Position numbers and translations under genes: made by a program. The notes beneath the pieces are model-generated. The model searched no databases and was not told where the DNA came from. It worked only from the letters and a program-made list of their open reading frames with translations. Below are positions 5,901 to 64,000 of a stretch of 64,000 bases of DNA, piece after piece. Source of the DNA: Chlorophyllum brunneum (taxonomy: Eukaryota; Basidiomycota; Agaricomycetes; Agaricales; Agaricaceae); contig OY756142.1 in NCBI GenBank assembly GCA_963576785.1, positions 2,480,001 through 2,544,000 on the forward strand, written 5' to 3'. Numbering within the stretch: position 1 is the first letter of the stretch; every line of letters starts with the position of its first letter.

Positions 5901-6763
5901 TGGCCACAGACGCTAGTCTACCGCTGCGGGGGGAGTTCCAGGCAGTTTCTGCTACCCATATCTACCAGTCGGGCCGGCATGTTTTTCAGACGAGACATGC
6001 GGCAGGTCGAGTGACGGCTCCTGATGCTGAGCTGTACGCTATCCGGATCGCAATTGGGAAGGCCGTTGGCCTCCCGGACTGCGACTCCATTGTCGTGTTC
6101 ACTGACTCACTTGGTTCGGCCAGGAGAGCGGTGGACCCTTCCGTTCACTCAGGTCAGGCTCATTCGCTTGCCGTGTGTAGCGCCCTTATGGAGTGGTTCG
6201 AGGGTCACCCCGAACGCTCCGTTCACATCTGGCACACCTATTCTTCGGAGAAGTGGGCCATTCACGGTGCAGTACACCAATACTACACCGAACTTCAGGT
6301 CGCCACGGGTTCCCGTCCGCACACCTCCCTTGACTATCTTCGTCAGAGGGCAGTCAGATCCTACCAGGATGCCTGGATCACTTGATTCCAGGATCCTACT
6401 TACTCGGGTAGCCAGTTCATGGCTCTCGAAGGGCGTAACGGTAAGCCCCTCCAGCCCACCTACCTCCATGGAGGTTTGTGGCTGCCTTCTGCCGCAGCAG
6501 AGTCCAACTCGCTGTCCGCCCGCATGTGTAGGGTTATACTCAACCATGCGCCTATCGGGGCCTATAGGTCTCGATTCTTCCAGGACGAACCATTCTGGTG
6601 TCCATGCGGGGCTCCCTTCGAGTCCTGCGTGCATATTCTTACCAACTGCGGTCGGTTTGATACCTCTCGGGGGTACCCTGCTACGCCGGGTGCCCTTGTC
6701 AAGTTCTTGAAAGCGAACCCTCAGGCGTTTGCCTTCCCATCCGTTCCCCAGGGAATTGGATAA
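2987..6763 (+). pseudogene. LINE ORF2 fragment broken by two CGA-to-TGA stops
   Basis: This is a family B ORF2 reading EKLKSDFDILFF onward in one frame to the TAA at 6761-6763. The frame is interrupted by TGA at 5237-5239 and TGA at 6383-6385, where sister copies have CGA (Arg). Both are C-to-T changes at a CpG in a TCG context, and there is no frameshift. The rest of the endonuclease (FFQEPPW, SGDFNCHS, SDHVPL), the RT with YVDD, the RNase H (ATDAS, APDAEL, VFTDS) and the C-terminal CCHC are all recognisable. The N-terminal endonuclease residues are missing through 5' truncation, so the copy cannot be autonomous. Compare the intact version at 55686-59552. Confidence 0.9.
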
Positions 6764-24066: not shown

Positions 24067-24151
24067 CATCGCTCCTTGACTTGTTACCACTACCATCACT
24101 TTTTCCACTTTCTTTCCCCATTGCACTATTCATCTTCTGGGCTCTCTCCTA
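24067..24151 (+). mobile_element. 5'-end stub of a LINE related to family A
   Basis: The stretch starts CATCGCTCCTTGACTTG, which parallels the family A 5' terminus CATCGCTTCTTGATTTGG. It then diverges into a pyrimidine-rich sequence before being cut by the oligo(T) of the minus-strand D piece at 24152. It may be the first 85 bp of another element, possibly family D, whose 5' end is otherwise not seen. Confidence 0.45.
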
Positions 24152-24926
24152 TTTTTTTTTTTTTTTTTTTTAAAAAAATCAACAATTTATATAGCGGTGC
24201 TTGATTGCAGTCCACATGTACATACAGAAGCAGAACGTACAAAATGTTCGGAGCAAGGAAAGTAAACTATTTGTAAAGTAACCCCATGAGACTTGACGCC
24301 ATCTAGCATGTACACTAAAGAGATGTTTGGTACCAAAGTTGAGTAGCAGAAAGAAGAATGGAAGGAATTCAGAGAGAGAAAGTGAGATAGAGAGATTGAT
24401 AGAGAGAAACTATTGACTTGCAAACACAAGGGAGAACAATGAATGGTACTAGCATGTAGAGGGGTGTTTTGCCCAGATACCACAGGAAAGATGGATTTTG
24501 AATGAAAACTATATAAAATAGTAGACAAGCAAGGAGAAGAGAGATAGAGAAATGAAATTGAAATCCATAACTGGGAGAGCATAAGAAAAAAGAGAGAGAA
24601 GAAAAGACTCACATGGGCATGGACCCAAACCTCTGATGGACTTGATGATGATGTAATGGGGGTATTGAACCGGCACAGATACAAGGGCAAACATGCTCTG
24701 GAGGGAAGCTGAATGTAGCAGGGTTACATTGCAAGAAGTTGACGAATGTCTTGATGGTATTGATGCCAAAGTGATGATTGAAGTTATTACAACGATGGAG
24801 GATGTGCGACCTAGTTTGGACCATCTGATTGTTGCAGTGGTGGCAACATAAATCCTCGTTGGGGAAGAACCAAAGTTGGTATTCCCCAATTGGGGCATGG
24901 CAAAGGATGGTGCAACATGCTTTTGT
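24152..24926 (-). mobile_element. Family D LINE, 3' end piece
   Basis: This is the 3' end of a divergent, A/T-richer LINE on the minus strand: oligo(A) tail (24152-24171 as T), a 3' UTR of about 437 nt without a gene (24172-24608), and the ORF2 C-terminus. The 3' terminus keeps the family A core (GTGGACTGC, then GCACC, then TGTTGATTT), so D and A are related. It is cut at 24926 by the R repeat. The D pieces at 28240-30632 and 37154-38333 are probably parts of the same copy. Confidence 0.65.
24609..24926 (-). pseudogene. Family D ORF2 C-terminal fragment
   Basis: The reading CHAPIGEYQLWFFPNEDLCCHHC with HILHRC aligns with GHAPTGEYRSRFHPLEPVGCECG and HILCSC of family A. This marks the C-terminal zinc-binding end of a LINE ORF2. 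The frame stays open for about 106 codons to the TGA end at 24609 but contains no catalytic domain. It happens to remain open into the neighbouring R sequence up to 25193; I regard that extension as chance because R is found elsewhere without D. Confidence 0.65.
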
Positions 24927-25749
24927 CACCCCCCACCAGTGTCGCCATGCCTTCGGGAACCCCTCTGGGGGTAGCGCCTGGTCGTTAGTAGGGATACGCC
25001 AAACTCCAGGACACCGGGCGGGTGCAGATTGACACGGGGAAACTCGGGTTGATTGGCGCTCATCCCGTGGATTGCTTAGTAACCTGTTCCACGGGATGCT
25101 TATGTGATCCAATGTGAACACCACCCTGGTAGCGCCCCCTGCGAGACGGAGATCCCCGCCAGTATTAGCACGTGGATCCGCGCCCAAAGACAAGTCGCCT
25201 CCTCTGGGGGTAGGGCATAGCGAAAGCGGCTGCGGGGGAACGGGAAGCTAGTCCAGGGGTCGCGCCTTGGAGGTACGCCTTTGTGGCCTCTGCCTGCCCA
25301 ACTAGTGGACCGTAGCGGGCTGTTTACTGGGAGCACGCTGGAAAAAGCCGCCCGGTTACCGAGAAGGAGCGGCCCAGCTCAAGAGGTCTAGATCCTCCAT
25401 CGATGGGTCTCCGCCAACAATGGAGTGTACCACGTAAGTAGTCTGGATTTGGGGTGGCGATGTGCGCAGTCATGTGGTGAGATCCTGTCTGTGCACCGTA
25501 TAGGAAGGATGCCTCAAGCGAACGGTGGGCCGGTCCTCAGGGATACCGTGCTCTCTCAGTAGCGGGGTGTCTGCCCAAGCTAAAGGCTTTACCTCTTAGG
25601 AGGGAGGGGCAAAGTCCCCGCAACATGGCCGGATGCGACACCAATATGGGAGCCTGGGAACATGCTGGGCGTTCTATGGGCACATATTGTCTCAAGACCC
25701 CCATCTCTGGGCTGCTAGGAGTTTGCCTGCAAGGGACTCCGTGTACGGG
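24927..25749 (+). repeat. Repeat R, copy 1, fused to family A 3' fragment
   Basis: This 823-bp G/C-rich sequence matches nothing in families A, B or D that I can see. A second copy is at 63132-63970 (minus strand). Both start at CACCCCCCACCAG and end at a run of GGG, and both are followed in the same orientation by a family A ORF2 fragment, but at different ORF2 positions. Here R joins A at CTTATCACGG with a few bases of microhomology. I find no tRNA-like or rRNA-like signature. It may be a host or element transcript captured by template switching. It contains no convincing gene; the longest conserved open frame is antisense (25100-25336). Confidence 0.7.
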
Positions 25750-25776
25750 CTTATCACGGTTCGAACTTCCTTGCTC

Positions 25777-25778
<2 letters not shown>
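25750..25778 (+). mobile_element. Family A ORF2 fragment (A7), left piece of R-A chimera
   Basis: These 29 bp of family A ORF2 (reading YHGSN/FLAL region) follow R directly and are interrupted by A8. The continuation is at 27594-28239. Confidence 0.82.
25765..25778 (+). repeat. Target-site duplication of A8, left copy
   Basis: The 14 bp acttccttgctctc in family A ORF2 are repeated exactly at 27580-27593 on the other side of A8. Confidence 0.92.
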
Positions 25779-25810
<32 letters not shown>

Positions 25811-27579
25811 GTCATGTTTAAGGTGGTGCGCGATCGCAGTCCACCTGTATCTACTATGACATGCAGAGTACAGAGAGTAGTTTACGAAGATAGGCTCTCC
25901 CCTGGCCGAACTAGACCGCCGACAGGTGGTCTGGGTGAATGGTCGCGGAAACACGCATGGACGCGCGAGTCCTAGACCAGATATGTAGAGCGACCCCTTG
26001 CCTCCCCTCCCTAAGGAGAGTATGCGTCAATTCGCAATTAACTTCTACACACGCCAGAGACGTGGGAAGCTAGCAGGGGTCGCGCTGCGTTATCCAACTC
26101 CCGCAAGCGGTGTGTTGGCCTTAAACGCGAACGCAGAAGGATTGCGCTTAAGAAAATTAACCAGCTGGTCGATAGAGACCGGCAGGCCACGGCGTCTCTT
26201 GTACAAAGGACAAGAGCACAAGATATGAGTGCGGGTCTCCAGAGGAGCCCCACACCCGCAGCCAATAGGCTCTAGAGGATGGAACCGGGAGTGATACTCG
26301 CCGGTTGGAGCATGCCCGAGGATGGCACGGTTCGCTCTCGTCGCAATAGACTGAGAGGGAAAAGAAGGAAGCCAAGAACCCCCATGGAGGTACGTTGGCT
26401 GTAGAAGTTTGTTCTTACTGTCCTTGAGAACAAGGAAGTTTGAACCATGATAAGAGGAGTCCTGGAAAGTAACTTTCCAGGCCTTCTGAATGGTTGCTAC
26501 GTTGACTTTACGCAGCGAATCAATTGATGTCGCTGGACGGTGTCCAGCGGCAACCTGTAAATCGGTGGCAAATGCATGCACACCCTGATGAATGGACCAT
26601 TTCGCCGATGACGGAACGGACCAGAAAGTGAGGGAGCGGTCAGGACGATTCCTGAACCACTCCAACAAGAGACGACACACAGCCAGGGAGTGTCCCTGGC
26701 CAGAGTGTACGGACGGGTCAAGAGCTCGCTTGGCAGAACCAATTGAGTCCGTGAAGACCGCAATGTGTACAGCCTCAGAGACTGCCAGAGCAGTTCCCAA
26801 GGCCATACGAATGGCAAAAAGTTCAGCATCTGGGGCTGTAACCTTGCCAGCTGGGTGACATGTTGCATGAAGCAAGCATGTCCCCATATAAACATGGGCA
26901 GCAGAAACTGCCTGGAAGTCCCCAACCAGTGGCAGACTTGCGTCCGTCGCTGCGTAGACAACCTGTCCATCCTCGCGATACCGACGAAGGGTATTGTTGA
27001 GCAAATCCACCTGATGACCCACAGGGTTTCCACCGAGCGAGGCATCATACGTTTTAAAAGTCACCTGGGCCGCGAAGTGGTCCATGAGACGAGAATCTGG
27101 CGACACCTCGAGCGCAAACGGCTCGAACGTCTCCGTTAGGTCTGGCAAGCGAGAGTTTGCCTCCGTGACCGGCCCCTTGACCTTACCCGCCTGGGTGGGG
27201 GTCATGAGAGCAATCGATCTGGGGTGTGGAACACAACCCCCTATATACTGACGCCCCATAATGGAACGAACAGGGTGATTATCAGAAAGCATAGCCACCC
27301 TGTGGACGGCACGGGCAGCTAACTTCCTGAGGTGAAGGTGGATGGGGATGAGGCCAGCCAAGGCTTCAGCTCCTCCGGAAGGGCTGGTGCGGAATGCACC
27401 AGTGATCCACAATGCAGCTTTGCGCTGCATAGCGTTAAGTTGCTTCAGAAGGGCCTTGTTACGGGCACCTTCATAAAACCAGAGTCGAAATCCATACGTA
27501 GCGATGGGCACTATGCATGAGCGGTACAGAGTCCTCTTCTGGAAGGGAAGAAGGCCTCGTGAAGAGTTACCAAGCATGC
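25779..27579 (-). mobile_element. 5'-truncated family A LINE (A8)
   Basis: This minus-strand family A copy starts within ORF2 after the RT catalytic region (reading CMLGNSSRGLL) and includes the whole 3' UTR (26089-25806) and the oligo(A) tail (T at 25779-25805). It is flanked by a 14-bp target duplication and inserted into the A fragment of the R-A chimera, so it is younger than the chimera. Confidence 0.93.
26090..27579 (-). pseudogene. LINE ORF2 C-terminal fragment (RNase H, CCHC), open
   Basis: The open frame runs about 495 codons to its TAA at 26090-26092. It holds the RT thumb/connection part (RTLYRSCIVPIATYGFRLW), the RNase H domain (ATDAS, APDAEL, VFTDS) and the C-terminal knuckle CGCGAPLETRTHILCSC. 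The endonuclease and RT active site are absent because reverse transcription stopped early. There are no stops or frameshifts, which fits a young insertion. Confidence 0.88.
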
Positions 27580-27593
27580 ACTTCCTTGCTCTC
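27580..27593 (+). repeat. Target-site duplication of A8, right copy
   Basis: This is an exact 14-bp repeat of 25765-25778; family A ORF2 resumes after it. Confidence 0.92.
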
Positions 27594-28202
27594 AAGGATA
27601 GTAAGAACAAGCTCTTGCAGCCGACGTACCTCCACGGGGGTTCGTGGCTTCCTTCCTTTCCCTCTCAGTCCATTACGACGAGAGCGAATCGTGCCATCCT
27701 CGGGCATACTCCAACCGGTGAGTATCGCTCCCAGTTCCATCCTCTAGAGCCTATTGGCTGCGAGTGTGGGGCTCCTCTGGAGACTCGCACTCATATCTTG
27801 TGCTCTTGTCCCTTGTACAAGAGACGTCATGGCCTGCCGGTCTCTATTGACCAGCTGGTAGGTTTTCTTAAACGCAATCCCTCTGCATTTGCGTTTAAGT
27901 CCGGCATACTGCTTGCGGGAGTTGGATAATGCAGGGCAACCTCTGCTAGCTTCCCACGTCTTTGATGTGTGTAGAAGTTAATTGCGAAGTGACGCATACT
28001 CTCCCTAGGGAGGGGAGGCAAGGGGTCGCTCGTTTTTCTGGTCTAGGATTCGCGCATCCTGCATGTTTCCGCGACCATTCACCCAGACCACCTGTCGGCG
28101 GTCTAGTTCGGCCAGGGGAGAGCCTATCTTTGTGTACCTTCACATTGTAGCCTGCATGTCACAGTAGATACAGGTGGACTGCGATCGCGCACCACCTTAA
28201 AC

Positions 28203-28239
<37 letters not shown>
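27594..28239 (+). mobile_element. Family A LINE 3' end (A7), right piece of R-A chimera
   Basis: This continues the chimera. The end of ORF2 is open to the TAA at 27927-27929 (C-terminal knuckle CECGAPLETRTHILCSC), followed by the 3' UTR (27930-28212) and an oligo(A) tail of 27. Together with R (24927-25749) this makes an R-A unit of about 1.5 kb before the A8 insertion. It lies in family D sequence, with no target duplication visible at 24926 and 28240. Confidence 0.88.
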
Positions 28240-28241
<2 letters not shown>

Positions 28242-29740
28242 CAATCTATTTAAGGTGGGACCAGGAGATGTGGTCAGGACCAGGGGCAGAAGAATTTGAG
28301 GTATCCTTGAGTGATTCCCTCATTTCTAGGAGAGAGAAATCAACCCAAGTCCTATTCTCTGTACCAATTGGCAGTGGTAGTTCTTCCAGTACAGCCGCAT
28401 TGACAGGTCTGTCCTGGGCCAAGTTGTAATGTTGGTCAAGGGCCGTCCATAGGTTGTCCATGGTGAGACAAGGCCAACTGTTGTGGCGAATAGCTTCCAT
28501 AGCTGGGAGAGCACATGCTTTGACCCATGGCATCAGATCCCATGGGTGTTGATTGTCAACCGAGATTTCTTGAATCTTCTTGTCGAAATATGCTCTTTTT
28601 GTTTTCCTCATGGTCTTGCAAAAGGCGTTCCATTTGCACTTGTTTTTGTGGTCCGCTCGGTGTTGCAAGTGCATTAGAGCATTCTTCATTCCACCAGGTC
28701 TTGGACCTAGTGGTGACCTTGGTCCTCTTCATGTTGCAATTCCAGGACCTGTCAAACAAAACTCCCAATTTGGCAATAGCTCTCTCTAGCTTGTCTGTGT
28801 CATTCATTGGCCAGTTCTTGGAGTTAATCCCTTCCATGATATCTGTCAGGAATTTGGTTTCCTCCTCCGATTCTTTGGGAATTGTCATTTTTTCGATGAT
28901 GACTTCTATTTGCGGAATAGGAACCCTGATTAGAAGGGGGGCATGACCCGAGTTGTATCAATCACCTTCCTGGATAGCATGGGTGGGGACATATGGTAAC
29001 ATTCCCGAAACAAACAACAGATCAATGACCATGTCTGGTAGGTTGGGGTCTGAGGTGTAGCATGTTGGTTTGGCCGCAGATGGGATTGACCTCTCTAAGT
29101 TGAGGGCTTCAGTGATTATGAGGAGATGGTCCGCACTCATTGGATGTTGGTCCATTGAAGGGTCCCATCACTCAGATCAAATGTTGATATCCCCATCTAG
29201 TAAGAGAAAGGGTGGAAGGTCAAAGAAGCACTCCTTGAGGAAGTGGAGTGCAGTGTTACGGCTGTCATTGTATACATTAAGCAACAGTAGTTCTTCTCCT
29301 CCTGCACAAAGAGAGATGCACAGGAGGTCTCGATATTCTATAATATCTCTTCTGACGGAGGGTCGGAGATGCTTGAGTCTCTTGTGAGCAAAGGCAAGGA
29401 CTTGGGGAGTGGTACAGTGTTCCATGTTCACCATCCATTGAGGGTGATGCCAGCATCCAACTTGGAGGACTTCTTCAGTGATAATTGGATATGAGAGGAG
29501 TGTCCAGTCCAGGTGGACCGGGCCTCCCACGAGGGGGGAGCCATTGTTGGAGACGGGGGAAGGGATATTGCAGAGGTATCTCCACGGGGGTTCTTATATG
29601 AGGAGGAGGTTGACATCACCTCTACACACAAGGACTGTCTCCATCACTCCATACGATCTTCCAACATTATGAGAGCAGACCTTCAACTCACTCAGGAGTG
29701 AGCGAGGAGGCCTGTCTTGATTGTCAGGTGCATTATTCAT
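28240..29740 (-). pseudogene. Family D ORF2 N-terminal part (endonuclease), broken
   Basis: ORF2 of the D element starts at the ATG at 29740 (MNNAPDNQD), 20 nt after the ORF1 stop, unlike the overlap seen in A and B. Endonuclease motifs are visible in pieces: EPPWRYL, MVNMEHCTTPQVLAFAHKRLKHLRPS, LLLDGDI, MVIDLLFV. The linker (TRSKTWWNEECSNA, HPWDLMPWVKA) leads to the RT start (APGPDHISWSHLK). A stop sits just before EPPW near 29593, and several frame changes follow (breaks near 29177, 28958, 28690). It stops at 28240 against the chimera tail; most of the RT and RNase H is missing. Confidence 0.75.
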
Positions 29741-29760
29741 TGAGGGAGGTTAGTCTGGCT

Positions 29761-30632
29761 TCAACTAGCCAGGGATGATGAGGAGGGGGGCAATGGAACT
29801 CCTTTGTTGGCTCTTAATTCGAGTACTTTGTTTGCGTGCCAGTTGTGGTCAAATCGTTTCTTCCAAAACTGACATTTACGGTCAGTGGCAAGGTGGTCCT
29901 TGCTGCAGTTGGAGCACGTAGCCTTGTGGGGGCATGGTTCTCCAGTGGGGGTGGCCGCAATTGGCAGGTCTACTTTGTCATTACCCTTGCAGCAGTAGGT
30001 GAAGGCATGATGGTTGGCGGTGGAGTGGGGACCCTTGCAGTGAGTGTAGGTGAACAGCCTCGCATGGCATTGGATGAGAGGGTGGCCCCATCTGCAGCAC
30101 TTGGTGCAGAACAGAACTCCCAGGTTAGCATTGGCCCTCCTAATGCAGAAGAGGCCCCCATAAATGTTGAGGAACTTGTCCTCAATCTTCACGATATTGG
30201 ACCCCACCTTGGAATCCCAGATTTCGAACCACACTGTGCAGGTGTCTGAGTGTTTAGAGTTGCATTGCAAATTGTATGGCATCTGAATGAATAGAATTCC
30301 GGATGCTGGTGATGACATCAGCTTTGGTGAGGATCTGTCCTTGAGGTGTGATGTAGCTAACATCCATGACTTTCACAAACGATTTGGACTTGGAAAGGGA
30401 AACGTCGCCCAATGTGATCCCTCTGAATTTCTCCTTGAGCCATACCTTGATGACATCTAGCTCTGTAGGGGTCAATACCTCCGAGGTGTGGACCATAAGG
30501 CCCAGCTTACCCTGCGAGGCAGCAATGACCCTAGTCTGGGATTTCTCCACTATAAGACAAGCATTAAGAGAGTCTATGATGGCCCCAAAATTGGTGATGT
30601 TGGGCCCGGTGAGAAGAGGGATGATGTCTTGC
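29761..30632 (-). pseudogene. Family D ORF1 C-terminal part (zinc knuckles)
   Basis: This is the gag-like ORF1 of D, split by the B4 insertion and continuing at 37154-38333; NGPLHKQDIIP on that side joins LLTGPNITNFG on this side. The central domain (VKVMDVSYITPQG; compare LRVVDVLYLKN in B) and three Cys/His clusters are present: CTKCCRWGHPLIQC, a HCKGPHSTANHHAF cluster, and CSNCSKDHLATDRKC. A frame change near 30300 separates the central and knuckle parts. The TGA stop is at 29761-29763. It is divergent from A and B but of the same design. Confidence 0.78.
30618..30632 (+). repeat. Target-site duplication of B4, left copy
   Basis: The 15 bp gggatgatgtcttgc in D ORF1 are repeated exactly at 37154-37168. 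Two extra bases (cg) separate this copy from the B4 5' end. Confidence 0.93.
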
Positions 30633-30666
30633 CGCATCGCTTCTTTTTCCAGAACTCCCACCTGTC

Positions 30667-30678
30667 GATCACGTGATC
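30667..30678. promoter_or_regulatory. Palindrome GATCACGTGATC in B4 5' UTR
   Basis: This has the same 12-bp palindrome, at the same distance from the 5' end, as in B2 and B10. It is a candidate internal promoter element containing CACGTG; its role is not shown. Confidence 0.4.
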
Positions 30679-30764
30679 ACCCCTTCATCGACACTCTTAA
30701 CGTCCTACACGTCCAAGACAGTGAGCGCTCTTAGCACGGATTTCCGTACGGGCCCCTAGCCCCC

Positions 30765-32746
30765 ATGCCTACTCGCAGTTCGAGGAGGAGGACAAGCGCC
30801 CATCGCGAGGCCTCCTCAGACGACGACGACATGGCCACTGCCTTTGAGGTAGCAGCCGGTCCCCCCCCCAGGTCCACCCCAGGCCCTTACTCTCTGGGTA
30901 TCCCCCCCTACGGTAGCAGTGCCAGGGATACCTATGCCCCCGCAGTTCCCCTTCAGCAGAGGGGACACACTCCATCGCGACACGGGTCCCCAACCCCTTC
31001 TCAACCTATCCCAGCTCCTGGTGCAGAAGCCAGGGCTTCGTCCCTCCCCCCGTCTTCCCCTCCTCCCGCCTCTCCGGAGGACATGGAACAGGACGACCAG
31101 GAGGAGCCTACCGCCACCCCCCTCTCTATCCTGGGCATCAATATTAGTGCCAGAGAGGACGCCGATGCGATCCAATGGTCGCTCGAGATTGTTGCCGACT
31201 TCATGAAGACGGCGCATCTCATTCCCCAGGAGGACGCTCCGTCCTTCCGTCCCATCGCCTCTCGACTATCTGAGATAGTCCAGACGGTCGCATCCTCCCC
31301 CATGTGGCGTGAAACCTACACAGGGGTGAGTGACTCTCTCTCCCTGAGGGACTCGATTGCTTCGGCGTTTCCTGCTCTCCCAGTAGTGACTTATAGGCCC
31401 CCGGCTACCCCCACCAGGGGGTTCCGGGACCTTCTATCCTCGCCCCCCCCCAGCGCAGAGCCCCTGTGCAGGAGGAGGACGATCTTATGGACCCAGAGAA
31501 GACTCCAGTCAAACGCCCGTGCACAGACCCTAAGGGGAAGGCGCCCGTCCGACCTGTTAAGGCCCCTACAAAGCCTCAGGTCCCCTACAAGAGGCCCTCT
31601 GGACCTCCTCCCTCCACGATCGCTTCGAAGCCTAAGCCAGGACAGAAGGCTTACTCGGCTGCAGTGAAACAACCGGCCTCGTCCAAGTCTGGGGCAGAGC
31701 CGTTTTCTGCATTGAAAGCGGCCTTCCCCCATCTCTCTGCAGAGCAGCTCCTCAGCCTTCATTCGCAGGCTGAGGCTGCAAAGCAATCCCCCTCGTCGAA
31801 TGCTCACCCTAAGAAGCCAGCGTTCACGATTCCCGGACCGTCGCGAAAGCAGGTCCTAGTTTCCTATGAAGACAAGTTGAATGCCTCGGCTGGTCTCCAT
31901 ACTCTTACCCAGCAGGCCTGTAAGGCGCTGAAGGCTGGGAGAAGCTCTCTGATCATGGAAGGTGCCACGCTTGCGTACGATGGCTATTCCATGGCCACCA
32001 ACAAACTTGTCACGACCAAGGACATTGAGATCCTCAGGGTGTTGGTTGAACGTCTGTCCCCTCCAGGAGCCCCCTTCTGGATCGGACTCCCATCTTCGGT
32101 GTCGTACCTCCGTGTGGTTGACGTCCTGTATCTCAAGAACTCCGCCGCTGGAGTTCAGTGTACCCCAGCAGACGTTGAGGAGGTCCTTACCTCGTCAGTG
32201 CATGCTCCCCTTATCAGCCTGAAGGGTCCCCCTAGGCTGGTGCGCAACTCCAAGACGTCTGACTCATGTACGGCGTTTTTTGACATCTGGGACTCCATGA
32301 GGGGTACCCGAGCTCTCGGTCTTCTGAATAAGAAGATCATGTTTGGGAACAAGCAGTGCGTTATACTCTCTGCTAACCCTCGTTGTAATGAGTCGCTGTG
32401 TACCTGCTGTTACAAGTGGGGCCACGCCTCCTCCTGGTGCAAGGCCGATGGCCCGGCATGTCCCGACTGTGGTGGTGCACACTCTCGTGCCAATCACTGC
32501 ACCTTTGCTCTGTATTGTAAGGGGCAACCGAAGGCTACACCTCTGGTTCCTGCTACCCCTGTTGGTCAACCGTTCCCCTATCCTCCTCATTGTTGTAACT
32601 GCAAGAAGGAGCATCCCGCTGATTCCAGGAAGTGCGCTTTCTGGAACCACAAACACGACCGGGCCTGGCTGACAGCCTGTTATCGAGAGGTGCGTGACAG
32701 ACGTCGTCACTCTCCCATCCCCCCTCATAACCCCCCTTATGTCTAG
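30765..32746 (+). pseudogene. LINE ORF1 with one +2 frameshift
   Basis: This is family B ORF1 from the ATG at 30765 (MPTRSSRRRTSAHREASSDDDD). The frame is open to about 31420, where the G-run after CCACCA has five bases instead of three, adding 2 nt. The rest reads in another frame from there to the TAG at 32744-32746. It has a Pro/Ser-rich N-terminus, a central domain (VLVSYEDKLNASAG) and knuckles CTCCYKWGHASSWC, CPDC and CCNCKKEHPADSRKC. Apart from the G-run it is nearly the same as the intact ORF1 at 53714-55693. The run lies in a G/C homopolymer, so a sequencing error is possible. Confidence 0.9.
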
Positions 32747-35700
32747 GAACAACCTGGACTGTCTGGAGGGCGTTAGGGTCTTTAGTTTTAATGTCGTGAA
32801 ATCGTACATCTACGTTGATACACTGCTTGAGAAATTGAAGGAAGACTTTGATATTCTCTTTTTCCAAGAACCCCTGTGGAGGTTCATCTGCACCACTCCC
32901 TCGACCACTGATGTGGAAGGGGATGACGTTACTGGTGCACCTAAGCACCCTGACTGGCTTATGGTGGTGCGCCCCCCCACCCAGGGGTCCCTGCCCCAAG
33001 TGATGGCATATGTACACACTCAGCTGCAACGTCTAAGGCCATCAACAAGGAGGGACCTCGTGGATCACCCTGACATCTTGGCGCTGATGCTCTTCACTGA
33101 TGCGAAGGCCCTCAATTTCCTGAACGTCTACTCAGATGATCAGCATACTGCCATCAACTTCCTTCATGGGAAGGTTGATGCTCTCCCCCCATTCGACTTT
33201 ATGAGTGGGGACTTTAACTGTCATTCTTCGGAGTGGGACCCTGAGGTTCTGCATCATCGAACGACAGCTCATAGGCTCATGGAAATGAGCTGCGACCTGG
33301 GCCTCGATTTGGTTATGCCAACCAACCCGGGTCCAACATTTATTTCCCACAACCCAGATCTCCGCCTATCGGTGATCAATCTGGTGTTTGTCTCATCTCC
33401 CAATGCATCAAGGACCTTTCCTTATCGGGACATATCTATGCAGGGTACTTTGGATCATGTTCCACTGACTGTCTCCCTTCCCATCACCCCTGTTGATGTC
33501 GGGGTCGTCAAGTCTGTCCTACCAAGGGGCTCCGATGAAGAGGAGGCCTTTTTGGGACACGTCATCGATGAGGTGACTGATCTTTTTGGTCATCCCTCTC
33601 CAGAATCCCCGGATCAAGTGGATGCCTTGGCTTCGGCCGTGGCTGAAGCCTTCTCCGACGCATGGACACACCACTCGAAGGAGATCCGGATTACGCGCTG
33701 CACTTGTCCCTGGTGGGACAAGGCGTGTGCTACTTCCTTCTCCAGGTAGCAGGACTCTCGTAGTCGGGGTGACTGGGGGGACTTTAGGCGAGCTCGTGCA
33801 GCTGCCAAGCGCCAATTCTTCGACTCTAAGATTGAGGAAATCGCTTCCACTAACAAGCGGCCATGGGACCTTATGGAATGGGTCAAGGCACGCAAGTTAC
33901 CTCCCTGTGAGGCTATCCAGTTTAACGGACGGCCTTGTCATACTATGGACTCTCTCTGGGATGCCCTCCACTCAACGTACAACTCTGCTGCTGATTGGTG
34001 GTGTGATGCGTCTGTCCTCGACCCCCTCCCCGACCTTCCAGTCCGGGAGTGGGCCCCCTTCTTGGCGTTGGAACTCAAGGAGGCTCTGTCCTCTTGTTCT
34101 AATACGTCCTCTCCAGGTCCGGACTATGTTACATGGTCCCATCTGAAGTACATTGTCATCGATGAAGATTGCTTGACGGTGTTCCTGCGTTTGGCCAACG
34201 CCTGCCTCTCGGTGGGGCATTGGCCACGCAGTTTTAAGGAGTCGCTCTCGGTTATCATTCCGAAGCCGGGGAAGCCCTTCTACTCTACCCCCAAGGCGTT
34301 CAGGCCAATTGTCCTCCTGAACACGCTTGGTAAACTGGTTGAGAAAATGCTTTCCAACTGCATCCAGTTTGATGCCATTAAACATGACATCTTTCATCCC
34401 CACCAACTTGGAGGCATTCGCCAACGTTCCACTGAGGACACCGGGTTGTTCCTTACTCACCTAGTTTGCACTGGGTGGGCTAAAGGTCTCAAGACGAGTG
34501 TGGTTGCTTTCGACATCGCTCAGTTCTTTCCCTCTCTTAACCATGAGATGCTCATGGCTATTCTTTCCAAGCAGGGGTTCCCACTTAACGTGCGAACCTT
34601 CTTTGCTTCATATTTGGTGGGCCGTTCCACTGTTTACACATGGAACGGCTTCTCCTCTGACCCCCGAGGTGCAGATGTGGGCATCGGGCAGGGCTCTGCC
34701 ATGTCCCCCGCCCTCTCTGGCCTCTATATTGCGCCTCTCATGAAGGTTTTCGACCTGCGGATCACCTCCCCTGGGAGTACTCTGCTGTCGTATGTTGATG
34801 ACGGTACCGTCGTTGCCCAGGCTAAGACCTGGGACAAGAACTTGGATACCCTCAAGGGGGCGTACATCGTTCTCTTCAATCTTTTTGTAGCATTCGCACT
34901 TGTCATGGAGCATGACAAGTCTGAGCTCTTCCACTTCTCTAGGAAGCCTGGAGACGTCAATCCCCCCCTTGACTTGGGCTTCGGTCCATTCACAGGGGAC
35001 ACTCCTCTTCGCCCTAAGACCTATTGGAGGTACCTGGGCTTCTACTTTGATCGTGCCCTGAATTTTCAGGAACATGTTCGACATTATTCTACCAAAGCCC
35101 TCTCCACCGTGAAAGTGATGGGGATGCTGGGTAACTCCTCCCGCGGTCTGACCCCCAGGCAGAAGCGGCTCCTCTTCAGGTCATGTGTCGTGCCTATCAC
35201 GACATATGGCTTCCGTCTGTGGTATTTTGATAAGGCTCGGTGTAAGGGCCTCATCAAATTCCTAAACACTATGCAACGCAAGGCTGCATTGTGGATCACC
35301 GGCACGTTCCGCACCTCCCCATCTGGCAGCACCGAGGCCCTCGCTGGCCTCATCCCCATCCACCTCCATCTGAAGAAGTTGGCCTCAAGAGTGAACTACC
35401 GTCTCTCCACCCTCTCTGATACTCACCCTCTTCGATCCCTCCTCGATCGTCCGAACGCCAAGGGTGCCCCCCTGCACCCTCTCTCCATCTCCCTCCTGTC
35501 TGACCGTCTTGTCGGTCGGGTCAAGGGTTCCCTTATGGAAGCTGTTTCCGTGCTCCCATCCCTTACTGAACAGTTTGACCCCTGCTCTGCAGTGGCTCAG
35601 CCTGGTCACCATCTCCTGGACTGCTTTGCGGCCCAGGTCTCCTTCCACAACTCTCCTTGCTCACGTAATGAGAGAGCTGTGCATATAAGGCATCTGAACA

Positions 35701-36605
35701 GCACCCTGGACCGTGCCAATGCCAACCCTTGGGTTCTCACTGTGGCCACAGACGCCAGTCTACCACTGTGGGGGGAATTCCAGGCAGTCTCCGCTGCCCA
35801 TATCTACTGGTCAGGCCGGCATGTCTTTCAGATGAGACATGCGGCAGGTCGAGTGACGGCTCCTGATGCTGAGCTGTATGCTATCCGGATCGCAATTGGA
35901 AAGGCCACCAGCCTTCCTGATTGTGACTCCATTGTCTTGTTCACTGACTCTCTTGGCTCGGCCAAGAGAGCGGTGGACCCTTCTGTTCACTCGGGTCAGG
36001 CTCATTTGCTTGCCGTGTGCAACGCTCTCATGGAGTGGTTCGAGGGCCACCCCGAACGCTCTATTCACATCTGGCACACCTACTCTTCGGAGAAGTGGGC
36101 CATTCATGGTACCGTACACCAATACTGCACCGAACTTCAGGTCGCTGCGGGTTCCCGTCCGCAGACCTCCCTTGACTCTCTTCGTCAGAGGGCCGTCAAA
36201 TCCTGCCAGGATGCCTGGATCACTCGATTCCAGGATCCTACTTACTCGGGTAGCCAGTTTATGGCTCTCGAAGGGCATAACGGTAAGCCCCTCCAGCCCA
36301 CTTACCTCCATGGAGGTTCGTGGCTGCCTTCTGCCGCAGCAGAGTCCAACTCGCTGTCTGCCCGCATGTGTAGGGTTATACTCAACCATGCGCCTATCGG
36401 GGCCTATAGGTCTCGATTCTTCCAGGATGAACCATTTTGGTGTCCATGCAGGGCTCCCTTCGAGTCTTGTGTGCATATTCTTACCAACTGTAGTTGGTTT
36501 GACACCTCTCGGGGGTACCCTGCCACGCCGGGTGCCCTTGTCAAGTTCTTGAAAGCGAACCCCCAGGCGTTTGCTTTCCCATCCATTCCCCAGGGAATTG
36601 GATAA
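32739..36605 (+). pseudogene. LINE ORF2 (EN-RT-RNase H) with one Tyr-to-stop
   Basis: This is family B ORF2 from the ATG at 32739, overlapping ORF1 by ATGTCTAG, to the TAA at 36603-36605. One TAG at 33747-33749 (codon 337, TAC in sister copies) lies between the endonuclease and RT domains; it is a C-to-G transversion, unlike the common C-to-T stops. Otherwise the frame is open: endonuclease FFQEPLW, SGDFNCHS and LDHVPL; RT with motif A FDIAQFFPSL, GQGSAMSPALSGLY and YVDD; RNase H ATDAS, APDAELYAI, LFTDS; and the C-terminal knuckle region, where CPCGAP has become CPCRAP. It is one mutation away from a full-length frame in this ORF. Confidence 0.92.
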
Positions 36606-36991
36606 CTGGCTCAGGGTAGGTGGGTTATTGTCCAGCACCGGTGGCCCCTGGCAAAGACTTGGTGACCGTCTCGATGACCGATGAACGGACCCGGACCCTG
36701 TGGTGACTAGGTGTGGTGAAGATGCCGATAGCCACACAAATGGTGCGGTCAATTACTCTGGCAAGGGTGACCGTGGCTGGGGGACTGGGTCTTAGTAAAG
36801 GGGAGTTGGGGCTTAGCTGGGCTAGTAACTGGGTACGTCTCCACCGCCAGGCATTTACAGTGAATTAACACCTACTGACTGGGCCTGGTCTTTGGACTGG
36901 GTCGCTGGTTGGGAGACCTCCCTGCCCACTCGCCTCCTCTGGCGTCCACCCCCCTCACCCTCCGGGCTCGGGAGTAGGACGCAACTCCTCC

Positions 36992-37015
36992 TACCGTTGG
37001 TTTTGGGCAACGGTA
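36992..37015 (+). other. 3'-UTR hairpin of family B
   Basis: The arms TACCGTTG and CAACGGTA form an 8-bp stem around GTTTTGGG, about 120 nt before the oligo(A). It is conserved in B1, B6, B7 and B10; B8 has a G-U pair (CAATGGTA). It is a candidate RT recognition stem-loop, distinct from that of family A. Confidence 0.55.
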
Positions 37016-37153
37016 CTTTTGCTTGGTAGGGCATAGCTACCACTTCTCCGTAGATACCCGCTAGAGTACTCATTTGTATTCCGGCCGCGGGCTGTGTTCG
37101 AGCGCCGCATAATAAATCGGCCTTAGGCCATGATTCAAAAAAAAAAAAAAAGG

Positions 37154-43032: not shown

Positions 43033-43586
43033 TTTTTTTTTTTTTTTTTTTTTTTCCTTCATGGCCTAAGGCCGATTTATTATGCAGCGCTCGAACACAG
43101 CCCGCGGCCAGAGTACAAAAGAGTAATCTAGCGGGTATCTACGGAGAAGTAGTGGACACGCCCCACCAAGCAGATGTACCATTGCCCGAAACCAATAGTA
43201 GACAGAATTGTGTCCTACTCCCGAGCCCGGAGGGCGAGGGGAGTGGACGCCAGAAGAGGCAAATGGGCAGGGAGGTCCCCCAACCAGCGACCCAGTCCGA
43301 AGACCAGGCCCGGTCAGTAGGTGTTAATTCACTGTAAATGCCCGGCGGCGGAGACGCACCCAGTTACTGGCCCAGCTAGGCCCCAACTCCCTCTTACTAA
43401 AACCCAGTCCCCCAGCCACGGTCACCCTTGCCAGAGTAATTGACTGCACCATTAGTGTGGCTATTGGCATCTTCACCACACCTAGTCACTGTAGGGTCCA
43501 GGTCCGTTCATCGGTCATCGGAACTGTTGCCAAGTCTTCGCCAGGGGCCACCGGTGCCGGACAATAACCCACCTACCCTGAGCCAG

Positions 43587-46500
43587 TTATCCAATTCCCT
43601 GAGGAACAGATGGGAAAGCGAATGCCTGAGGGTTCGCATTCAAGAACTTGACAAGGGCACCCGGCATGGCAGGGTACCCCCGAGAGGTGTCAAACCAACT
43701 ACAGTTGGTAAGAATATGCACACAAGACTCGAAGGGAGCCCCGTATGGACACCAAAATGGTTCATCCTGGAAGAACCGAGACCGGTAGGCCCCGATAGGC
43801 GCATGGTTGAGTATAACCCTACATATGCGGGCAGACAGCAAGTTGGACTCTGCTGCGGCAGAAGGCAGCCATGAACCTCCATGGAGGTAAGTGGGCTGGA
43901 GGGGCTTACCGTTATGCCCTTCGAGAGCCATAAACTGGCTACCTGAGTAAGTAGGATCCTGGAATCGAGTGATCCAGGCATCCTGGCAGGATTTGATGGC
44001 CCTCTGACGAAGAGAGTCAAGGGAGGTCTGCGGACGGGAACCCGCAGCGACCTGAAGTTCGGTGCAGTACTGGTGTACGGTACCGTGAATGGCCCACTTC
44101 TCCGAAGAGTAGGTGTGCCAGATGTGAATGGAGCGTTCAGGGTGGCCCTCGAACCACTCCATGAGAGTGTTGCACATGGCAAGCAAATGAGCCTGACCCG
44201 AGTGAACGGAAGGGTCCACCGCTCTCTTGGCCGAGCCAAGAGAGTCAGTGAACAAGACAATGGAGTCACAATCAGGAAGGCTGGTGGCCTTTCCAATTGC
44301 GATCCGGATAGCATACAGCTCAGCATCAGGAGCCGTCACTCGACCTGCCGCATGTCTCGTCTGAAAGACACGCTGGCCCGAACCAGTAGATATGGGCAGC
44401 GGAGACTGCCTGGAATTCCCCCCACAGTGGTAGACTGGCGTCTGTGGCCACAGTGAGAACCCAAGGGTTGGCATTGGCACGGTCCAGGGTGCTGTTCAGA
44501 TGCCTTATATGCACAGCTCTCTCGTCGCATGAGCGAGGAGAGTCGTGGAAGGAGACCTGGGCCACAAAGCGGTCCAGGAGACGATGACCAGGCTGAGCCA
44601 CTGCAGAGCAGGGGTCAAACTGTTCAGTAAGGGATGGGAGCACGGAAACAGCTTCCATAAGGGAACCCTTGACCTGACCGACAAGACGGTCAGACAGGAG
44701 GGAGATGGAGAGAGGGTGCGGGGGGGCACCCTTGGCGTTCGGACGATCGAGGAGGGATCGAAGAGGGTGGGTATTGGAGAGGGTGGAGAGACGGTAGTTC
44801 GCTCTTGAGGCCAGCTTCTTCAGATGGAGGTGGATGGGGATGAGGCCAGCGAGGGCCTCGGTGCTGCCAGATGGGGAGGTGCGGAACGTGCCGGTGATCC
44901 ACAATGCAGCCTTGCATTGCATAGTGTTTAGGAATTTGATGAGGCCCTTACACCAAGCCTTATCAAAATACCACAGACGGAAGCCATATGTCGCAATAGG
45001 CACGACACATGACCTGAAGAGGAGCCGCTTCTGCCTGGGGGTCAGACCGTGGGAGGAGTTACCCAGCATCCCCATCACTTTCACGGTGGAGAGGGCTTTG
45101 GTAGAATAATGTCGAACATGTTCCTGAAAATTCAGGGCACGATCAAAGTAGAAGCCCAGGTACCTCCAATAGGTCTTAGGGCGAAGAGGAGTGTCCCCTG
45201 TGAATGGACCGAAGCCTAAGTCAAGGGGGGGATTGACGTCTCCAGGCTTCCTAGAGAAGTGGAAGAGCTCAGACTTGTCATGCTCCATGACAAGTGCGAA
45301 CGCTACAAAAAGATTGAAGAGAACGATGTACGCCCCCTTGAGGGCATCCAAGTTCTCGTCCCAGGTCTTAGCCTGAGCAACGACGGTACTGTCATTGACA
45401 TACGACAGCAGAGTACTCCTAGGGGAAGTGATCCGCAAGTCAAAAACCCTCATGAGAGGTGCAATATAGAGGCTAGAGAGGACAGGGGACATGGCAGAGC
45501 CCTGTCCGACGCCCACATCTGCACCCCGGGGATCAGAGGAGAAGCCATTCCATGTGTAAACAGTGGAACGGCCCACCAAGTATGAAGCAAAAAAGGTTCG
45601 CACGTTAAGTGGGAACCCCTGCTTGGCAAGAATAGCCATGAGCATCTCATGGTTAAGGGAGGGAAAGAACTGAGCGATGTCGAAAGCAACCATGCTTGTC
45701 TTGAGACCTTTAGCCCACCCAGCGCAAACTAGGTGTGTAAGGAACAACCCGGCATCCTCAGTGGAACGTTGGCGAATGCCTCCAAGTTGGTGGGGATGAA
45801 AGATGTCATGTTTAACGGCATCAAACTGGATACGGTTGGAAATCATTTTCTCAACCAGTTTACCAAGCGTGTTCAGGAGGACAATTGGCCTGAACGCCTT
45901 GGGGGTAGAGTAAGAGGGCTTCCCCGGCTTCGGAATAATAACCGAGAGCGACTCCTTAAAACTGCGTGGCCAATGCCCCACCGAGAGGCAGGCGTTGGCC
46001 AAACGCAGGAACACCGTCAAGCAATCTTCATCGATGACAATGTACTTCAGATGGGACCATGTAACATGGTCCGGACCTGGAGAGGACGTATTAGAACAAG
46101 AGGACAGAGCCTCCTTGAGTTCCAATGCCGAGAAGGGGGCCCACTCCCGGACTGGAAGGTCCGGAAGGGGGTCGAGGACAGACGCATCACACCGCCGATT
46201 AGCAGCGGAGTTGTACGTCGAGTGGAGGGCATCCCAGAGAGAGTCCATAGTATGACAAGGCCGTCCGTTAAACTGGATAGCCTCACAGGGAGGTAACTTG
46301 CGTGCCTTGACCCATTCCATAAGGTCCCATGGCCGCTTGTTAGTGGAAGCGATTTCCTCAATCTTAGAGTCGAAGAATCGGCGCTTGGCAGCTGCACGAG
46401 CTCACCTAAAGTCCCCCCAGTCACCCCGACTACGAGAGTCCTGGTACCTGGAGAAGGAAGTAGCACATGCCTTGTCCCACCAGGGACGAGTGCAGCGTGT

Positions 46501-49427: not shown

Positions 49428-49556
49428 GGGGGCTAGGGGCCCATACGGAAATCCGCGCTAAGAGCGCTCACTGTCTTGGACATGTAGGACGTTAAGAGTG
49501 TCGACAAAGGGGTGATCATGTGATTGACAGGTGGGAGTTCCGGGAAAAGAAGCGAT

Positions 49557-53584: not shown

Positions 53585-53616
53585 ATCGCTTCTTTTCCCG
53601 GAACTCCCACCTGTCG

Positions 53617-53628
53617 ATCACGTGATCA
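53617..53628. promoter_or_regulatory. Palindrome GATCACGTGATC in B10 5' UTR
   Basis: This perfect 12-bp palindrome with a CACGTG core lies 32 bp from the element's first base, as in B2 and B4. It is a candidate internal promoter or factor-binding site; the function is inferred only from its position and conservation. Confidence 0.4.
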
Positions 53629-53713
53629 CCCCTTCGTCGACACTCTTAACGTCCTACACGTCCAAGACAGTGAGCGCTCTTAGCGCGGATTTCCATATGG
53701 GCCCCTAGCCCCC

Positions 53714-59552: not shown

Positions 59553-59938
59553 CTGGCTCAGGGTAGGTGGGTTATTGTCCAGCACCGGTGGCCCCTGGCG
59601 AAGACTTGGTGACCGTCTCGATGACCGATGAACGGACCCGGACTCTGCGGTGACTAGGTGTGGTGAAGATGCCGATAGCCACACAAATGGTGTGGTCAAT
59701 TACTCTGGCAAGGGTGACCGTGGCTGGGGGACTGGGTCTTAGTAAAGGGGAGTTGGGGCTTAGCTGGGCTAGTAACTGGGTACGTCTCCACCGCCGGGCA
59801 TTTACAGTGAATTAACACCTACTGACCGGGCCTGGTCTTTGGACTGGGTCGCTGGTTGGGGGACCTCCCTGCCCACTCGCCTCCTCTGGCGTCCACCCCC
59901 CTCGCCCTCCGGGCTCGGGAGTAGGACGCAACTCCTCC

Positions 59939-61380: not shown

Positions 61381-63131
61381 TTTTTTTATTTTTATTTTAT
61401 TTTTAAATCATCATGTTTAAGGTGGTGCATGATCGCAGTCCACCTGTATCTACTGTGACATGTAGACTACAAAGGTAGTGGTATACGAAGATAGGCTCTC
61501 CTCTGGCCGAACTAGACTGCCAACAGGCAGTCTGGGTGGACAGTCGCAGAGACACGCATGAACGCGTGAACCCTAGACCAGATATGCAAGCGACCCCTAG
61601 CCTCCCCTCCCTAGGGAGAGTATGTGTCAATTCGCAATTAACTCCTACACACGTCAGAGACATGGGGAGCTAGCAGGGGTCATGTTGCGTCATCCAACTC
61701 CCGCAAGCAGTGTGTTGGACTTAAATGCAAACGCAGAAGGATTGCACTTAAGGAAACCTACCAGCTGGTCAATAGAGACCGGCAGGCCACAACGTCTCTT
61801 GTACAAAGGACAAGAGCACAAGATATGAGTGCGAGTCTCCAAAGGAGCCCCACACCTGCAGCCAATAGGCTCTAGAGGATGAAACCGGGAGTGATACTCG
61901 CCGGTCAGTGCATGCCCGAGAATAGCACAGTTTGCTCTTGTCACTATGGACTGAGAGGGAAAAGAAGGAAGCCAAGAACCCCCCTGAAGGTATATTGGCT
62001 ATAGAAGTTTGTTCTTACTATCCTTGAGAGCAAGGCAGTTTGAACCACGATAAGAGGAGTCCTGGAAAGTAACTTTCCAGGCCTTCTGAATGGTTGCAAT
62101 GTTGAGTTTACGCAGCGAATCAATAGATGTTGCTGGACGATGTCCAGTGGCGATGTGAAGGTCAGTGGCAAATAAATGCACCTCCTGATGAATGGTCCAT
62201 TTCGCCGAAGATGGAACGGACCAGAAAGTGAGGGAGCGGTCAGGACGGCCCCTGAACCACTCCAACAAGAGACGACACACAGCCAGGGAATGTCCCTGGC
62301 CAGAATGTATGGACAGGTCAAGGGCTCACTTGGCAGAACCAATCGAGTCCGTAAAGACTGCAATATGTACTGCCTCAGAAACTGCCGCAGCAGTTCCCAA
62401 AGCCATACAAATGGCAAACAGTTCAGCATCTGGGGCTGTAACCTTCCCAGCTGGGTGATGCGTTGCATGAAGCAAACATGTCCCCCTATAAATGTGGGCA
62501 GCAGAAACTGCCTGGAAGTCCCCAACCAGCGGCAGACTCACGTCCGTCACTGCATAGACAACCTGTCTATCCTCACGATACCCACAAAGGGTATCATCAA
62601 GCAAATCCACCTGATGACCCACAGGGTTTCCACCAAGTGAGGCATCATATGCCTTATAAGTCACCTGGGCCGCATAGCGGTCCAGGAGACGAGAACCTGG
62701 CGGTGCTTCGAGCGCAAACGGCTCAAATGTCTCCGTTAAGTCTGGCAAATGCGAGTTTGCCTCTGTGACTGGCCCCTTGACCTTGACCGCCTGAGCGAGG
62801 GTCGTGAGAGTGATCAATCTGGGGTGTGGAACACATCCCCCAATGTACTGACACCCCATAATGGAGCGGACAGGGTGGTTCTCAGAAAGTGTGGCAACCC
62901 TGTGGACGGCACAGGTAGCCAGCTTCTTGAGATGAAGATGGATGGGGATGAGGCCAGCCAAGGCCTCAGCTCCTCCGGTAGGGCTGGTGCGGAATGCACC
63001 AGTGATTCATAATGTTGAGTTGTTTTAAAAGGGCCTTGTTACATACACCTTCATAAAACCATAGACGAAACCCATATGTAGCGATAGGCACTACACATGA
63101 GCAGTAGAGAGTTTTCTTCTGAGCAGGAAGA
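61381..63131 (-). mobile_element. Family A LINE 3' part (A10) of second R-A chimera
   Basis: This minus-strand family A copy runs from ORF2 after the RT active site (QKKTLYCSCVVPIATYGF) to the 3' UTR (61689-61405) and a T-interrupted A tail (61381-61404). Its 5' edge at 63131 is joined to R in the same orientation. The 3'-UTR hairpin at 61514-61533 has both arms changed in a pairing-preserving way. No target duplication is visible. Confidence 0.87.
61690..63131 (-). pseudogene. LINE ORF2 C-terminal fragment, several breaks
   Basis: This family A ORF2 fragment is read upstream to downstream. A deletion of about 20 bp near 63010 shifts the frame. A TGA at 62326-62328 replaces CGA (CpG transition) right after the FTDS motif, and a TAG at 61999-62001 replaces CAG. 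The RNase H (VTDVS for ATDAS, APDAEL, VFTDS) and the C-terminal knuckle CRCGAPLETRTHILCSC are recognisable. The TAA is at 61690-61692. It is not functional. Confidence 0.86.
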
Positions 63132-63970
63132 CCCATACATGGAGTTCCTTGCAGGCAAACTCCTAGCAGCCCAGAGATGGGGGTCTTGAGACAATATGTG
63201 CCCATAGAACGCCCAGCATGTTCCCAGGCTCCCATATTGGTGTCACATCCGGCCATGTTGCAAGGACTTTGCCCCTCTCTCCTAAGAGGTAAAGCCTTTA
63301 GCTTGGGCAGACACCCCGCTACTGAGAGAACATGGTATCCCTGAGGACTGGCCCGCCGTTCGCTTGAGGCATCCTTCCTATATGGTGCACAGACGGGATC
63401 TCACCATATGACTGCGCACATCGCCACCCCAAATCCAGACTACTTACGTGGTATCAACTTAAACAGGTACACTCCGTTGTTGACAGAGACCCATTGACGG
63501 AGGATCTAGACCTCTCAAGCCAGGCCGCTCCTTCTTGGTAACTGGGTGGCTTTTTTCAGCACGCTCCCAGTAAACGGCCTCCTACAGTCCACTAGTTGGG
63601 CAGGCAGAGGCCACGAAGGCGTACCTCCAAGGCGCAACCCCTGGACTAGCTTCCCGTTCCCCCACAGCCGCTTTTGCTATGCCCTACCCCCAGAGGAGGT
63701 GACTTGTCTTTGGGTGCGGATCTGTGTGCTAATACTGGCAGGGATCTCTGTCTCGCAGGGGGTGCTACCAGGGTGGTGTTCACATTGGATCACATAAGCA
63801 ACCCGCGGAATGGGTTACTAAGTAATCCGCAGAATGAGTGCCAATCAACCCGAGTTTCCCTGTATTGACCCGCACCCGCCCGGTGTCCTAGAGTTTGGCG
63901 TATCCCTACTAACGACCAGGCGCTAACCCCAGAGGGGTTCCCGAAGGTATGGCGACACTGGTGGGGGGTG
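63132..63970 (-). repeat. Repeat R, copy 2, fused to family A fragment
   Basis: This 839-bp copy of R on the minus strand has 16 bp more than copy 1 (24927-25749) at one internal site near 63454-63469. It ends in GGG and joins family A ORF2 at TCTTCCTGCTCAG, a different ORF2 point from copy 1. On its other side the match to copy 1 ends at 63970; the remaining 30 bases of the window may be more R or flank. There is no recognisable gene; an antisense open frame at 63546-63797 matches that at 25100-25336 in copy 1. Confidence 0.7.
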
Positions 63971-64000
63971 GCCTGTCCTTTTGGTTGGCTTGTTTTCACC
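63971..64000. other. Unassigned 30 bp at window end
   Basis: This does not match the flank of R copy 1 or the expected continuation of B11. It is too short to assign. Confidence 0.3.

Follow-up and report, generated by a model that had tools for sequence, protein, structure and literature searches.

The 64,000-nucleotide stretch of Chlorophyllum brunneum DNA analysed here (the window; C4:2480001–2544000, in a searched genome of 38.9 Mb and 14 contigs) carries two copies of a non-coding sequence, R, each fused in sense orientation to the 3' part of a long interspersed nuclear element (LINE) of family A. As judged from comparisons across this genome, R is a recurrent element in which the LINE triplet preceding the junction depends on the R subfamily and is matched to a predicted guide triplet inside R. 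Guide-addressed joining of R to LINE sequence is well supported by these comparisons. The first-pass annotation of the window had pointed to a template switch from LINE RNA to a second RNA, with microhomology at the junction. A chance switch onto a passive RNA is not borne out: because the LINE-side triplet goes with the guide triplet within R, R takes a sequence-specific part in the joining.

The junction triplet and the guide within R

Three subfamilies are distinguished by their 3' ends, Ra (GTGTACGGG), Rb (GTACGCGGG) and Rc (GTAGAYGGG). The LINE bases preceding each junction were taken from uninterrupted LINE copies, and differ by subfamily when distinct sites are compared. Ra junctions have C at -3 (18/25), C (16) or T (9) at -2 and T at -1 (19/25), i.e. 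mostly YCT; Rb junctions have C at -3 (19/23), T at -2 (22/23) and C (13) or T (10) at -1, i.e. CTY; and at Rc junctions the triplet is CGA, with C at -3 in all 24 sites, G at -2 in 20 and A at -1 in 17. From the wobble pattern in these triplets, guides of 5'-AGG-3' (Ra), 5'-GAG-3' (Rb) and 5'-UCG-3' (Rc) were predicted. The predicted triplets occur together at one aligned place in R, right before a conserved UGAWAACA / AAAAAACA stretch, the aligned contexts being GG-AGG-TGAAAAC in Ra, CG-GAG-TGATAAC in Rb and TG-TCG-TGATAAC in Rc. A single inserted G separates Ra from Rb at this point, and accounts for the shift in guide register between them.

In a scan of 748 aligned positions the guide place ranked first, with 55 of 73 site entries fully paired. 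The runner-up (45/73) is a promiscuous GGG, able to pair with every all-pyrimidine triplet and failing on Rc. When each copy was tested against its own guide, 36 of 58 copies in a first set were fully paired (shuffled mean 14.3, maximum 25 in 10,000), as were 48 of 73 in an enlarged set (shuffled mean 20.0, maximum 33 in 20,000). Full pairing was found in 18/18 copies with guide GAG, 16/25 with AGG and 10/11 with TCG, while the guides TCA (7 copies) and TTG (6), which resemble decayed TCG, face triplets starting with CG in 10 of 13 cases. CGA itself stands at 14 of the 24 junctions with guides TCG, TCA or TTG, and makes up only 1.1–1.3% of the triplets of LINE families A and B.

At LINE spots shared by Ra and Rb, the junctions are offset by 1–2 bases as their guides demand (A1885/1886, A4352/4353, A4842/4843 and A5593/5595, in LINE A positions); for example, Ra is joined after CCT at A1885 and Rb after CTC at A1886, and likewise Ra after TCT at A4843 and Rb after CTC at A4842. 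Three natural Ra/Rb recombinants have a guide of one type and an R end of the other. Two of these follow the guide fully, L080 (Ra end, guide GAG) lying at CTC and L088 (Rb end, guide AGG) at CCT; the third, L026 (Rb end, guide AGG), lies at A5895, an Ra site used by two Ra copies. Copies read later include L167 and L173 (both with guide AGG), at CCT and CTT respectively, and L053 and L085, whose Rc-type guides face CGA in 2/3 and 1/2 of the LINE homologs, respectively. For a fourth family, Rd, which was read after the rule was set and has cruder LINE homologs, 7 of 11 GGG guides and 3 of 6 GGC guides were fully paired.

Several observations weigh against such a rule. Full pairing is lacking in 25 of the 73 copies, although five of these guides, all kept in the 73, are unreliable (those of L060 and L072 were misread from sequence outside R, and a further three, from L011, are uncertain). 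The AGG copies are the loosest, with CCA (3), CCC (2), GTT (2), ACT (1) and CTC (1) among their targets, and the target of recombinant L026 pairs at only 2/3 positions. L092 and L118 (guides TCA and TGG) lie at CAA or CAG, which do not fit; nor, judged by the best homolog, do the Rd copies L121, L135, L138, L140 and L032, and Rd copies L139 and L128 fit with some LINE homologs only. Finally, a control for pausing made up of plain LINE truncations (TGG, CGG, TCT, GCA, TTT, TGC) is too small at n=6, and two of its triplets would pair with AGG.

R as a recurrent chimeric unit

Each of the 94 distinct intact R 3' ends that were read continues into LINE sequence in sense orientation, the LINE being of family A or B in 90 cases. 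The first-pass annotation had raised the possibility of such a recurrent class of chimeras. The search it proposed for further R–LINE junctions located them at dozens of different places in LINEs of at least three families. The LINE start ranges from A1096 to A5970 and from B364 to B6227, while the R border is constant. In 77 of the 90 the match to a single reference LINE begins no more than 3 bases from the R end, and in the remaining 13 somewhat later, since the single reference copy diverges. The other four ends (L053, L085, L092, L118) enter sequence that recurs behind Rd copies, and the partner of L053 resembles a LINE RNase H region. No intact R end lacking a LINE-type partner, and so no solo R locus of the kind that had been suggested, was found among these 94 ends (the 182 pattern matches described below were examined in part). 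The full-length A and B copies examined carry no R. This, with the spread of junctions over LINE positions in several families, shows that R is not the normal 5' region of one complete LINE. R is a recurrent chimera class and not a LINE 5' untranslated region (UTR).

Of 15 copies with both flanks read, 9 have direct repeats of 14–16 bp that enclose R and its LINE part together. Seven were scored by script (score of at least 9; 210 mismatched flank pairs reached a maximum of 8), and those of L010 and L022 were judged clear by eye, the script having mistaken a later A run for the tail. Since the duplications enclose the entire unit, R and LINE sequence entered the genome as a single insertion. 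R copies truncated by later insertions (L020 and the second copies in L011 and L016) were not counted as intact ends. Dropped before counting were L017 (the same locus as a window copy), L086 and L087 (chance pattern matches), L127 (ambiguous end), and L105, L109 and the fusions to LINE family C, for all of which the LINE bases of the triplet were lacking at that stage. L119 is the same locus as L015_+_7410, so the 89 rows of the subfamily triplet table represent 88 loci.

The fusion seen in the first-pass annotation, with a LINE A 3' end and poly(A), is real, but R is not the 823-bp sequence it had delimited. In other copies R extends about 590 bp further upstream to a fixed 5' end, (CAT)CGCTCCTTGACTTG, and nine full Ra copies measure 1,425–1,433 bp with both ends fixed, giving a complete R of about 1.43 kb. 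Inspection of the sequence revealed no long open reading frame, consistent with a non-coding unit. The segment at 24927–25749 has at least 41 matches in the host genome (best 40 of 98 candidates scored). With up to 2 mismatches allowed, the pattern for the R 3' end matches the genome at 182 places, compared with 23 for a reversed control, and the pattern for the 5' end (up to 3 mismatches) does so at 72, compared with none; because these far exceed the controls, chance is ruled out as the source of the recurrence.

Four Rc copies read whole are 881–891 bp long, and share a core with Ra and Rb but have a different 5' head. In this tRNA-like head we take TGGTCAAGTGG to be an A box and GGTTCGAAACC a B box, by eye and against the box consensus. 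The Rc consensus is free of TTTT, as expected of a long RNA polymerase III (Pol III) transcript; in the Ra consensus, whose head is a different one, TTTT occurs three times. Family Rd gave 43 matches (pieces counted), mainly spread over chromosome arms, and has the 3' end CTTAGTCGAG. Its members (L121–L140, L032) are joined to another LINE family, whereas most Ra, Rb and Rc copies sit, on each chromosome, in a single LINE-rich block that is possibly the centromere. A further subfamily, Re (L166/L167, L158, L160), has guide AGG and the end CTCTGTGTATGGG, and occurs within the LINE-rich blocks. A hairpin motif like GGGAGCGTGCTGAAAAAAGCCGCCC is found twice in Ra, Rb and Rc (L005 1393–1423 and 1903–1933), and is missing from Rd. 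The last base is G throughout, Ra, Rb and Rc ending in GGG and Rd in GAG.

The window copies of R, and the LINE sequences attached to them, are arranged as follows.

24067..24148, + strand: 5' end of R copy 1 (Ra consensus 1–77 at 24072–24148; R start near 24067–24072)
24149..24926, - strand: antisense LINE-type fragment of 778 bp with a poly(T) run at its start, in place of R 78–588, guide included
24927..25749, + strand: main part of R copy 1 (Ra consensus 589–1427), with terminal bases GTGTACGGG
25750..25778, + strand: start of the LINE A 3' part joined to R copy 1, beginning at A position 5595; pre-junction LINE triplet CCT
25779..27579, - strand: later antisense 5'-truncated LINE A insertion into the chimera (A 4470–6268), with target-site duplication 25765–25778 / 27580–27593
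27580..28238 (end approximate), + strand: remainder of the fused LINE A 3' part (A 5610–6268) plus poly(A)
61383..63131, - strand: 3' part of LINE A (A 4498–6264) attached to R copy 2
63132..64000, - strand: R copy 2 (Ra consensus 559–1427), continuing past the window edge; GGG edge as in copy 1

Copy 1 is damaged internally, having kept its first ~77 bp and lost R 78–588 to the antisense fragment. Its sense junction, 25749|25750, leads to LINE A position 5595. The few bases of microhomology previously assigned to this junction were not seen, the LINE bases upstream of the junction point being CAGGACTCCT and the R terminus GTGTACGGG; nor did the junctions of other copies show any. The sharp GGG 3' edge that had been described is present in both copies. 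The 14-bp duplication flanking the later LINE A insertion is ACTTCCTTGCTCTC. In copy 2 the guide triplet AGG lies at 64001–63999, its first base one position beyond the window, and pairs fully with the pre-junction LINE triplet CCT.

Elsewhere in the window are three near full-length LINE B copies (30635–37151, +; 43041–49556, -; 53584–60093, +) that are 95–98% identical. The third has an open frame of 1303 aa with endonuclease and reverse transcriptase domains, which suggests recent LINE B activity; the named proteins nearest to the LINE B reverse transcriptase are from Cyclocybe, Candolleomyces, Psilocybe and Leucocoprinus. Pieces of a third LINE family, C, which is the partner of Rd elsewhere, occupy 28240–30634.

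Predicted fold and origin of the junctions

Group I introns carry an internal guide sequence (IGS), have helices in the order P3–P8 with a P7 pseudoknot, end in a terminal G, and in reverse splicing join past the guide-paired bases. The consensus sequences of the four R families share a core with helices labelled P3-P4-P5-P6-P7-P8, in group I order, with P7 pseudoknotted with P3. From guide to terminal G, R spans about 490 nt in Rc and Rd and about 880 in Ra and Rb. Seventeen of the 46 core pairs show changes in both partners (against a mean of 6.0 for shuffled and 0–2 for slid versions), among them 3 pairs in P3 and 2 in P7, and pairing cells reach 91% in the core model compared with 79% in shuffled and 36–45% in slid versions; the model and the count rest on the same four sequences, which favours the model, and the helix names are our own assignment. 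R further resembles these introns in the position of its guide near the 5' side, which pairs with the pre-junction bases in the manner of an IGS, in a P2-like hairpin and in its terminal G. On these features the R core looks and joins like a group I intron. Unlike group I introns, R has a guide of only three bases, has no 5' exon and enters through LINE retrotransposition.

Against such an affinity, the Rfam group I model (RF00028) matched no R locus (26 candidates scored, contig C14 serving as positive control), and R is for this reason not classed among group I introns. When R copies were scanned with Rfam, the RNA database check that had been proposed for R, matches were at chance level only (E up to 10; one scan E up to 1), and the idea of R as a known RNA was set aside on this basis. 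An extra helix domain of ~70–90 nt between P3 and P4 is unusual in group I, and the G-U pair typical of group I junctions is not required, the -1 base being T, C or A according to the guide. C14, which is probably the mitochondrial genome, has four group I intron matches of mitochondrial type (C14:29061–52164), three of them above cut-off.

Other identities for R were tried and set aside. ARAGORN called no tRNA in L120, and Rfam gave no group II family or domain V at E up to 10 in L005, L120, L139, L130 and L124. Telomerase RNA was considered, and no supporting feature was seen. Of two candidates for a standing R donor gene, C13:389.2k turned out to be an Rd member fused to another LINE, and C13:225.6k is only partly similar to R. 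A search with an R-core pattern returned no viral contigs and five bacterial contigs, which were taken as chance.

The explanation we favour, and consider probable, is that R acts as a ribozyme of group-I-like type, linking its own terminal G to LINE RNA at the guide-paired triplet, with the LINE machinery then inserting the chimera. The basis for this at the sequence level is the guide-target code, the fixed R end, the variable LINE start, the duplications around the whole unit and the conserved fold; that R itself catalyses the joining is what we infer from them. In outline, the three-base guide of R would pair with LINE RNA, G-U pairs being allowed, and the 3'-terminal G of R would attack the LINE RNA and become joined to the base following the paired triplet. 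The product, R plus the 3' part of the LINE RNA, would retain the LINE tail, and LINE proteins would copy this chimeric RNA into DNA. As R is seen only in chimeras, it is proposed that R is released again from chimeric transcripts at the GGG edge, which would close the cycle and make a separate R gene unnecessary.

The main rival, unlikely in our estimate, is a guided template jump, in which R pairs via its triplet, the LINE reverse transcriptase moving up the LINE RNA stops there and jumps to the R 3' end, and R guides without catalysis. Template jumping by LINE enzymes is the model advanced in PMC2104539 (in the accessible part of that paper), and such a jump accounts for the guide code, the constancy of the R end and the flanking duplications. 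Three or four paired bases, however, would not be expected to halt the enzyme by themselves, and the conserved group-I-like pseudoknot core is left without a clear role. Much less probable is the sealing of R and LINE RNAs by a cellular RNA ligase after a nuclease cut, as proposed for U6-L1 chimeras via RtcB. RNA ligation before retrotransposition is one of the two U6-L1 routes proposed in the available text of PMC13174262, but this leaves unexplained why the upstream LINE triplet pairs with a site in R, unless the cleavage is R-guided. An unguided switch at pause sites or onto broken LINE RNA, with R passive and abundant (the model of the first-pass annotation and that put forward for MINE elements), agrees with an overall anatomy like that of MINE and U6-L1 chimeras and with the reuse of several LINE sites; it is barely credible given that the LINE triplet varies between R subfamilies and, in mixed copies, tracks the guide, and given the excess of CGA at junctions with TCG, TCA and TTG guides described above. 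That R is an ordinary LINE 5' UTR, or a host repeat with other borders, can practically be dismissed: each intact R end examined does join LINE sequence, but the full-length A and B copies examined are without R, and the R border stays fixed while the LINE side of the junction varies over dozens of positions in three families.

Extending the ribozyme explanation, R may be a self-sustaining, intron-like ribozyme retroelement that cuts itself free from R–LINE transcripts at its terminal G, attacks a new LINE RNA at the triplet its guide specifies and is reinserted, within the new chimera, by LINE proteins, with no gene besides the chimeras and a tail renewed at each jump; MINE/WEIRD of Magnaporthe would then be a second lineage of the same kind. 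We regard this wider proposal as tentative, its chances being slightly short of even.

Relation to known chimeras and significance

The MINE elements (WEIRD-MGL) of Magnaporthe, as described in the accessible part of PMC2104539, consist of a full-length non-coding RNA sequence of ~1.1 kb fused in sense to a variably 5'-truncated LINE, with target-site duplications, reused sites, no solo copy and a GCC motif on the LINE side before the junction, for which pausing was the authors' account. The parallel with MINE elements drawn in the first-pass annotation holds for the overall build, since R chimeras likewise have a complete non-coding RNA sequence at the 5' side, a sense LINE truncated at variable positions and repeats around the whole. 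The motif GCC is what would be expected from a guide GGC. Of the 13 distinct sites among the representative ones in Table 3 of that paper, 12 are compatible with such a guide, and equally with GGT, when G-U pairs are allowed. The published MINE junctions therefore appear to fit the guide rule of R, one Rd type of which has GGC as its guide, the likeness being one of build and LINE-side motif.

U6-L1 chimeras, for which RNA ligation and template switching have both been proposed (PMC13174262, available text), resemble R in that a non-coding RNA stands in sense orientation on the 5' side of a truncated LINE, with flanking duplications. They differ in that U6 is a host gene, whereas none of the R ends examined belonged to a solo locus, and in that no guide is reported for U6-L1 in that text. 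No report of a guide for MINE, U6-L1 or similar chimeras was found in a literature search to which subscription papers were largely outside. Rc also invites comparison with tRNA-derived short interspersed nuclear elements, in that its beginning looks, by eye, like Pol III A and B boxes, but Rc is ~890 bp long and is followed by many different LINE starts instead of one built-in tail.

Chimeric LINE insertions have so far been read as accidents of template switching. Here an RNA guide addresses the junction, and the partner RNA seems to steer its own capture. This offers a testable route from catalytic intron to retrotransposon, suggests that a nuclear genome harbours a natural RNA-joining system guided by three bases, and allows the GCC rule of MINE elements to be reinterpreted. 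Because the guide predicts the place of each junction, the long-standing choice between joining at the RNA level and template jumping can be settled cleanly. The R family, taken as a whole, suggests a self-joining, intron-like parasite of jumping genes.

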